DNA from: Pseudobdellovibrionaceae bacterium
GTDB lineage: Bacteria > Bdellovibrionota > Bdellovibrionia > Bdellovibrionales > Bdellovibrionaceae
Reading direction: 5' to 3'
NCBI GenBank assembly: GCA_021731025.1
Contig: JAKFYD010000066.1
Location: 1-33,789, forward strand
Length of the DNA: 33,789 nucleotides
Below the pieces are notes generated by a model. That model had not been told where the DNA came from. It did no database searches and was given only the letters and a program-made list of their open reading frames with translations. The position numbers and the translations under genes are program-made. Of the stretch, positions 18,906-33,789 are shown one piece after another (positions within the stretch are counted from its first letter, which is position 1; every line of letters starts with the position of its first letter).

Positions 18906-19793
18906 ATGAAAAAAAGAAGTCAACAAAGTCAATTTCATCGATCTCAAGTCGGGCGAGCTCAAAGATATATTCGTATGAACCTAAATGGAACACTGACTTT
19001 AACAAATATAGCTAAAGAGTCAGGTTCCTCCTCCTATCACTTTGCTCGTCTCTTCGTAGCATATACAGGTGAAACTCCATTTGATTTTCTTCGACGAATT
19101 CGCCTGACTACGGCCTTAAAGATGTTGCAAGAAGACCCAGAGGGGCCGATTACAGAAATTGCCTTGAGCGTCGGTTACGAAACTTCGTCGGCCTTTAATA
19201 AGGTCTTTAAAAAAGTTTTAAATATGAGCCCCAGTGATTTTCGCAATATTGGAAAAGAAGCTCAGTACGATGTGATCTATGATCTCAGTAAACCAAGGCA
19301 ACAAAAGGAGATCGCTGTGAATCTGAGCTCAAAATATGAAATCGTCACTCGTGCTGCAACCCACTTCGTATTTCTACAAAATCATGGACCCTTTGCTGAA
19401 ATTGCACCGCCAACTTGGAATGAAATGTTCCCCTTGGTTTTTGGTCAAGTTGATCAAAAGAAAATCGTTGAGTATCTAGGTCTAAGCACCATTGATAAAA
19501 CAAAAATGGGTGAAGAGGCGATGATCTACGAGGCCGGTGTGGCATTGAATACTGCTCCCGATAAAATTTTAAAAGGATTAGAATATAAGAAGATTAAGAG
19601 TGGAAAATATGCGAAATTCTTACTGATAGGACCCTACGCGCAAATTTGGATCGCCTTTGGTCAGATATTCAAAACTCTTGCCGAAAATAAAGTACAACTT
19701 CGCCAAGAGTTTTGTATCGAAAATTATATTAATGATCCTAAAGAAACCCCTGAAGATAAATTACAGACCGAGTTGCTGATTCCAGTCATGTAA
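18906..19793 (+). CDS. AraC-family regulator with C-terminal GyrI-like ligand domain
   Basis: A 295-residue protein. The double helix-turn-helix is at the N-terminus (about residues 17-115: AQRYIRMNLNGTLTLTNIAKESGSSSYHFARLFVAYTGETPFDFLRRIRLTTALKMLQ, then ITEIALSVGYETSSAFNKVFKKVLNMSPSDFR). The rest (about 137-295) is a GyrI/SOUL-like ligand domain (YEIVTRAATHFVFLQNHGPFAEIAPPTWNEMF, then GKYAKFLLIGPYAQIWIAFGQIF). This order is as in Rob. Such regulators sense drugs or small hydrophobic molecules. The ATG at 18906 gives the usual length; an upstream in-frame start at 18768 would run through the acetyltransferase gene and is unlikely. Confidence 0.9.
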   Translation: MKKRSQQSQFHRSQVGRAQRYIRMNLNGTLTLTNIAKESGSSSYHFARLFVAYTGETPFDFLRRIRLTTALKMLQEDPEGPITEIALSVGYETSSAFNKVFKKVLNMSPSDFRNIGKEAQYDVIYDLSKPRQQKEIAVNLSSKYEIVTRAATHFVFLQNHGPFAEIAPPTWNEMFPLVFGQVDQKKIVEYLGLSTIDKTKMGEEAMIYEAGVALNTAPDKILKGLEYKKIKSGKYAKFLLIGPYAQIWIAFGQIFKTLAENKVQLRQEFCIENYINDPKETPEDKLQTELLIPVM

Positions 19794-19902
19794 TTTTATT
19801 TGGAGATCATGTCGCTAATGAGTTAAGAAATAATTTGATACTTTTCGTCGAGGCAATATGTCGCCATCTCTACCAGAAGTCGTACATGAATCGGTCGCGC
19901 TG

Positions 19903-32837: not shown

Positions 32838-33194
32838 ATGAGTCGTTATGTCGATGGATTTCTTATTCCTATTAAGAAAAAAAATCTGAAAAAGTACCAA
32901 AAGATGGCTACACTCGGCCGCAATGTCTGGATGAAATACGGCGCGTTGGATTATTACGAATGCGTGGGTGACGATATTAAAAAAACCTACGGATTGCCGC
33001 TGGCAAAACTTTGTAAATTGAAACCGGACGAGACACTCATTTGGGCTTACATTGTGTACAAATCCAAAGCCCATCGCAACCAAGTGAATGCCAAAGTGAT
33101 GAAAGATCCGCTTATGAATCCAGAGGAACATATGGGTCTTTTCGACATGAAAAGGTTTTCAGTCGGTGGATTTAAAGTCTTAGTTCGATCTTAA
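32838..33194 (+). CDS. DUF1428-family protein
   Basis: A 118-residue protein with the standard DUF1428 pattern: SRYVDGFLIPIKKKNLKKYQKMATLGRNVWMKYGALDYYECVGDD, then DETLIWAYIVYKSKAHRNQVNAKVMKDPLM and ending MGLFDMKRFSVGGFKVLVRS. It is a ferredoxin-like dimeric alpha-beta barrel of unknown function, often found singly. GAGGAGG precedes the ATG, 25 bases after the YeiH-type stop. It converges on the macro-domain gene, with 8 bases between stops. Confidence 0.92.
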   Translation: MSRYVDGFLIPIKKKNLKKYQKMATLGRNVWMKYGALDYYECVGDDIKKTYGLPLAKLCKLKPDETLIWAYIVYKSKAHRNQVNAKVMKDPLMNPEEHMGLFDMKRFSVGGFKVLVRS

Positions 33195-33202
33195 GTAGTG
33201 TA

Positions 33203-33763
33203 TTAGATGTCTAATTCTAAATCAGCAGCTGCCACATCTTCTTTGCGACTAGGAGAAGATGAGTTAGGCTTTTTATTGTTATCTAATTTCTCTGAAGCGG
33301 ATAAAGGTTCATAAACATAAACTTCAAGATCACTTAAAGATCCTAAGTATTTCTCAATCAAAAGCTTCACATCGTCCCAATTGAGCCCGCCAAGCCCACA
33401 ACCTAGGGGGGGAAGTGCAAGGCTCTGGATGCCCATTTCTTGATAATGATTAGCCAAATAGCTCAAACCATCTTCGATATCCTTGAGCAAGGATTTATCT
33501 TTCCAGTGACGTTTGGTTGGGAAATTCAAAATCTGAACTTCGTTATTTTCCCAAAGATAAGGTTTTCCAGCTATAACCTCTCTTTTTTGACAACGAATTT
33601 TATAATCATTGAACATTTTCGGAAATTTTTTTTTGAAATCTAAAGCGAGCCCAGCCCCCATTACGCCAACACAGTTCACAGTGTTGGTAATAATTTGAGC
33701 AGAAGATTCAAAAATATTTCCCTGAATAAAAGTTACCAATTGAACCTCATTTTTTGGGTACAT
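33203..33763 (-). CDS. darG: DarG-like macro-domain protein (predicted ADP-ribosyl-DNA hydrolase, antitoxin)
   Basis: A 186-residue protein whose first 150 residues are a DarG-type macro domain: VTFIQGNIFESSAQIITNTVNCVGVMGAGLALDFKKKFPKMF, then QILNFPTKRHWKDKS and SLALPPLGCGLGGLNWDDVKLLIEKYLGSL. The NTVNCVGVMGxGLA and NFPTKRHW blocks are those of DarG; Lys84 in the latter corresponds to the residue needed to remove ADP-ribose from DNA thymidine. The last 35 residues are Ser/Lys/Asp-rich and disordered; the larger C-terminal domain found in longer DarG proteins is absent. The start overlaps the upstream gene by 17 bases, and that gene ends like DarT. A TTG farther in (LVTFIQG) is a possible alternative start. 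Confidence 0.85.
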   Translation of the reverse strand: MYPKNEVQLVTFIQGNIFESSAQIITNTVNCVGVMGAGLALDFKKKFPKMFNDYKIRCQKREVIAGKPYLWENNEVQILNFPTKRHWKDKSLLKDIEDGLSYLANHYQEMGIQSLALPPLGCGLGGLNWDDVKLLIEKYLGSLSDLEVYVYEPLSASEKLDNNKKPNSSSPSRKEDVAAADLELDI

Positions 33764-33789
33764 AGTACCATCCAGGATTGGCTTCCACA
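33747..33789 (-). CDS. darT: 3' end of an upstream gene, probably the DarT toxin (partial)
   Basis: On the minus strand the window edge contains an open frame ending in a TGA at 33747-33749. The last residues read VEANPGWYYVPKK. DarT DNA ADP-ribosyltransferases commonly end in a motif like PxWYY or PxWYF, so NPGWYY, followed by a short VPKK tail, is what one expects if darT precedes darG. The frame overlaps the macro-domain start by 17 bases, which also fits an operon with coupled translation. The rest of the gene is outside the window, so the identity rests on this short tail plus the neighbour. Confidence 0.55.
   Translation of the reverse strand, partial: VEANPGWYYVPKK

Follow-up and report, generated by a model that had tools for sequence, protein, structure and literature searches.

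The 33,789-nucleotide stretch analysed here (the window), which is an entire contig (C39) of a Bdellovibrionales genome of 81 contigs, 3.49 Mb and 99.95% completeness, ends within what is very probably a chromosomal toxin–antitoxin operon of the DarTG2 type, in which the macrodomain protein DarG neutralizes the toxin DarT chiefly or only by repair of its product. The type assignment follows from the presence of a complete DarT beside a DarG macrodomain, which identifies the pair as a DarTG2-type DNA ADP-ribosylation toxin–antitoxin. The initial annotation, which had proposed a DarTG-type system, was right on this point and overlooked that the C-terminal domain of DarG is missing. Judged by its sequence, the pair is a member of a DarTG2 clade with a predicted macrodomain-only antitoxin.

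The final 126 bases of the window (33664–33789) are an exact repeat of positions 19762–19887 at the end of contig C58, the only further copy of this stretch found in a search of the genome. A join between the two contigs is very probable, if not perfectly clean: C58 runs three bases past the 126-bp overlap and reads CTG there versus TAA in the window. The neighbouring gene upstream of darT encodes a RadD-type helicase (NCBIfam) and the neighbour downstream of darG is a convergent DUF1428 gene (Pfam). In another genome of the same genus (G001) RadD and DUF1428 share a contig, 5.4 kb from each other and oriented relative to one another as in C58 and C39, which mildly supports the join. An empty site was sought between these two genes in G001, where other genes intervene and no clean empty site is present. 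The DUF1428 gene of the window (32838–33194) has a second DNA match, 63% identical, at G000:C37:1445–1773.

The window contains the 3′ end of darT (33747–33789, minus strand), encoding 13 residues (VEANPGWYYVPKK) with a TGA stop codon at 33749–33747, in exact overlap with C58. The remaining 199 codons are located on C58, where the whole reading frame (G000:C58 19166–19804 in the ORF list, corresponding to positions 905–1543 of locus L002) is complete with 212 aa and ends in VEANPGWYYVPKK like the truncated frame of the window. The toxin had earlier been proposed from gene order and the 13 residues of a truncated same-strand frame ending NPGWYYVPKK, together with the expectation of a darT gene of about 200 codons to the right of the window; that frame does continue on C58, as a same-strand darT of 212 codons with an aligned catalytic glutamate (E161), and is neither short nor of a different family. 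The protein matches Pfam PF14487 (DUF4433) over profile positions 2–201 of 201 (E = 9.6e-44) and the PADLOC DarT profile (E = 1e-44), and scores 142.8 bits against the NCBIfam equivalog NF048013, just below the cut-off of 150. As read off the alignment to 7omv, 7yk3 and 7omu, Arg60, Tyr79 and Glu161 occupy the positions of the catalytic Arg, Tyr and Glu of Thermus sp. 2.9 DarT (7omv; residue roles from PMC9967889 and PMC5179494), and Asn118 aligns with His119 of 7omv, a position that is also Asn in the Mycobacterium tuberculosis and Thermosipho proteins. A model of a relative at locus L044, whose DarT is 66% identical to that of C58 (pLDDT 91.7), superposes on Thermus DarT with a TM score of 0.83 and more weakly on Escherichia coli DarT1 (8baq; TM score 0.64), a pattern in the predicted fold that is as expected of a DarT2.

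The darG gene (33203–33739, minus strand) lies directly downstream on the same strand and is predicted by Pfam, PADLOC and AlphaFold to encode a macrodomain antitoxin of the thymidine-ADP-ribose hydrolase type, with 178 aa from a conserved TTG codon; the open reading frame from ATG 33763 (33203–33763, minus strand) has 186 aa. The start is probably TTG 33739 instead of ATG 33763, as relatives mostly start at the equivalent codon of the alignment (TTG, GTG or ATG) and a GAGGT (33744–33748, minus strand), the probable ribosome-binding site by direct reading, is located upstream; a similar GAGGT precedes the TTG in the relative G034. With this start, the two genes are separated by seven bases with no overlap, and thus the 17-base overlap previously described, correct when counted from ATG 33763, is likely to be a start-codon artefact. 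The three DarG sequence blocks on which the antitoxin had been recognized (NTVNCVGVMG, NFPTKRHW and PPLGCGLGG) are all present. DarG matches Pfam Macro (E = 2.7e-15) and, restricted to profile positions 1–160 of 329, PADLOC DarG (E = 1.5e-64); its score of 223.5 bits against the NCBIfam equivalog NF048014 is below the cut-off of 250 for a model of 338 positions that includes the C-terminal domain missing here. The AlphaFold model (pLDDT 84.3) displays a confident macro fold, with low confidence from about residue 159, and its best PDB matches are the DarG macrodomains of Thermus aquaticus and M. tuberculosis. DarG also aligns in sequence with 5m31 and 5m3i. The predicted catalytic lysine, Lys84 in ATG numbering (codon 33512–33514, minus strand), aligns in 5m31 with Lys80 of T. 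aquaticus DarG, which is essential (PMC5179494). The equivalent of Lys29 of the T. aquaticus protein is Ala37, and both Lys and Ala are found at this position within the clade. The NADAR domain, which would indicate DarTG1, has no match in the antitoxin in Pfam or NCBIfam.

Canonical DarGs are 345–460 aa in length versus 178–186 aa for the window DarG. At the position where other DarGs carry a DarT-binding domain of ∼190–230 aa, the window protein has a tail of ∼32 residues (33206–33301, minus strand) that ends in EDVAAADLELDI and is predicted to be disordered (pLDDT below 50 for residues 159–176); the DNA-mimic domain that binds DarT is absent. A profile built from 69 long-DarG tails matched nothing in the window, in C58 or in any locus of the short-DarG clade, no separate gene for the domain is present near any short DarG, and the sole match in the window's own genome is weak (27.6 bits; contig C24, inside a 1195-aa frame). 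The DarTG2 subfamily is defined by the macrodomain antitoxin, with the C-terminal domain as the usual DarG component (PMC11543638).

The one short-looking DarG with a DarT neighbour that falls outside the clade, in a Nostocaceae genome (L087), was rejected as a further case since its C-terminal domain is in the next open reading frame. The canonical C-terminal domain (L066:4448–5143 and L102:4433–5074) faintly resembles the SocA/Panacea antitoxin domain, below threshold (E of 0.1–0.13). Two macrodomain proteins, one of 313 aa (L027 in G009) and one of 331 aa (L029 in G059), come from genomes of the family to which the window genome belongs. Their C-terminal halves lack a match to the usual DarG C-terminal domain or to any Pfam family; a search for DarT at E ≤ 0.001 gave none in either genome, and these proteins possibly have another toxin partner. 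In a Verrucomicrobia locus (L065:2953–4332) the iterated DarT profile also matches residues 264–459 of the long DarG frame, which could reflect an artefact of the profile or an unusual fusion.

The short-DarG alignment, used to search 84,980 genomes, retrieved 80 loci. Those with both DarT and DarG form two sets, the nearest 11 with DarG frames of 175–213 aa (174–184 aa from the first residue of the macrodomain) and nearly all others with 345–460 aa, which are not an unbiased census because the loci were picked by similarity to the short form. In the maximum-likelihood DarT tree, all 15 toxins with a short DarG, that of the window included, form one clade (99/97; 100% of 200 bootstrap trees), and the C-terminal domain is absent in all 15 of these pairs and present in the other 55, an arrangement that fits loss of the domain here or its gain elsewhere alike. 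The tree of DarG macrodomains again contains the short-DarG clade, with weaker support (88/58). The two genes are adjacent on the same strand in at least eight relatives, as they are across the contig overlap here. About 15 of the 369 genomes of the phylum have a short DarG and a few have a longer macrodomain protein. The named short-form records are mostly from Bdellovibrionota (Bdellovibrionaceae, Bacteriovoracaceae and Oligoflexia); the other labels, one Aenigmatarchaeota MAG and three records given just as 'Proteobacteria' or 'Deltaproteobacteria', may be a matter of binning or naming. Some pairs in relatives adjoin AbiEii or AAA_21-type defence-like genes; that of the window adjoins RadD and DUF1428.

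In the DarGs studied so far, the macrodomain reverses the DNA modification and the C-terminal domain occludes DarT via single-stranded DNA mimicry (PMC11481870, PMC12170906, PMC11543638). The macrodomain of T. aquaticus DarG alone is a sufficient antitoxin if Lys80 is intact (PMC5179494). By the chemistry of these homologues, DarT would transfer ADP-ribose from NAD+ to thymidine in single-stranded DNA, the modification would stall replication and the DarG macrodomain would remove the ADP-ribose from thymidine. Since the C-terminal domain is absent and the T. aquaticus macrodomain suffices as an antitoxin, the short DarG would neutralize DarT as a type IV antitoxin does, through hydrolysis only. 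Other DarTG systems are known to defend against phages, and by analogy the operon may act in phage defence or growth control. DarG is described as braking DarT in two ways, by repair of the DNA and by plugging of the toxin; a clade that keeps the repair brake alone would demonstrate that nature can do without plugging, and allows a test of how a phage frees a toxin that is never sequestered. In the part of the literature that was covered, a search for DarTG together with Bdellovibrio returned no paper.

It is rather unlikely that DarG still blocks DarT by direct binding, via its short tail or the macrodomain, and is thus an ordinary type II/IV hybrid antitoxin. The tail is 31–34 aa long in 17 of the 18 distinct short DarGs, with a semi-conserved end and one alanine that is invariant in alignment A5; this near-constant length and the conservation at the end suggest that the tail is probably under selection. 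However, the tail is predicted to be disordered, is variable in sequence and is far below the length of a C-terminal domain, that of the window DarG is nearly neutral (seven acidic and five basic residues), and the K80A mutant of the T. aquaticus macrodomain showed neither rescue nor inhibition of DarT (PMC5179494).

The end of the tail provides a lead to another role. A motif resembling those that bind the β-sliding clamp, Q[LMPQA][SDNG]L[FILMP], is present within the last nine residues of six of the 18 distinct tails versus 0.005 expected from shuffles, a pattern chosen after the tails had been viewed and with four of the six matching tails from close relatives; a slightly wider pattern matches three further ORFs among 3,447. 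The C-termini in question are QQSLF (three times; the form of the Bacteriovoracaceae copies), QQSLI, QLDLI and QPSLPL (L045, L046, L049, L050, L051 and L020), which may be compared with the clamp-binding consensus QL(S/D)LF (PMC9690074) and with QTSLF and QLSLF in the two DnaE-type polymerases of the window genome. We regard a clamp-binding tail as a lead only. It is doubtful that, in this Bdellovibrionota lineage, DarG gave up toxin binding and rides the replication clamp, stripping ADP-ribose from DNA at the fork. The tail of the window DarG (AADLELDI) does not contain the motif and misses the key glutamine, and the ISARQPEA group is likewise without it; if DarG did ride the clamp, the terminal DLELDI would represent a clamp peptide that is weak or has decayed. 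Should the clamp tail be real, this would be a toxin–antitoxin system with an antidote recruited to replication forks.

Decayed copies of darT or darG in some relatives (L013 in G092, L014 in G119 and L187 in G201) suggest turnover of darTG pairs. That the window pair is itself such a remnant, non-functional after mutational loss of the C-terminal half of DarG, is nevertheless highly improbable given the identical short length across the whole clade, the intact active sites, the lack of any remnant of the C-terminal domain nearby and the window pair being free of internal stops. Phages commonly encode solo macrodomains of ∼150 aa (identity of up to 48.6%), but the proposal that DarG sits beside a non-toxin gene as an unrelated macrodomain protein, whether a house-keeping ADP-ribose hydrolase or an anti-DarT macrodomain of phage origin, is largely refuted, as an intact DarT lies next to it, toxin and antitoxin are co-inherited as one clade in both trees, and phage-type solo macrodomains are mostly without a tail and score less than 200 bits versus more than 250 for the short-DarG group. 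A phage macrodomain was also considered as the origin of the short DarG, for which the DarG tree gives no support.

A DarTG2 pair with a DarG that would act chiefly or only by repair can be placed among the known systems as follows. It shares with the DarTG2 systems of T. aquaticus and Thermus sp. 2.9 (5m31 and 7omv) the DarT fold and catalytic positions, the catalytic lysine of the macrodomain and the gene order darT–darG, whereas the Thermus DarG has a DarT-binding C-terminal region in place of the ∼32-residue tail. Both enzymes and the DGNA motif of DarT (Asn118 in the C58 protein) are common to the M. tuberculosis system (Rv0059–Rv0060; 5m3i and 7yk3), whose DarG, as Deep et al. (2023) are cited in PMC12170906, inhibits DarT by C-terminal mimicry of single-stranded DNA through a domain that is absent from the window DarG. 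DarTG1 (DarT1–NADAR) is related through a paralogous toxin fold (the L044 model superposed on 8baq) and differs in its NADAR antitoxin and guanosine target (PMC11543638), the antitoxin here being a macrodomain. The Thermosipho africanus DarTG (7omu) also combines DarT with a DarG macrodomain, in a chain of 406 aa that is too short for a canonical C-terminal domain; it is one fused polypeptide, as opposed to two genes here, and its long branch in the DarT tree falls among the long-DarG toxins, and it is a precedent for the state without the C-terminal domain.
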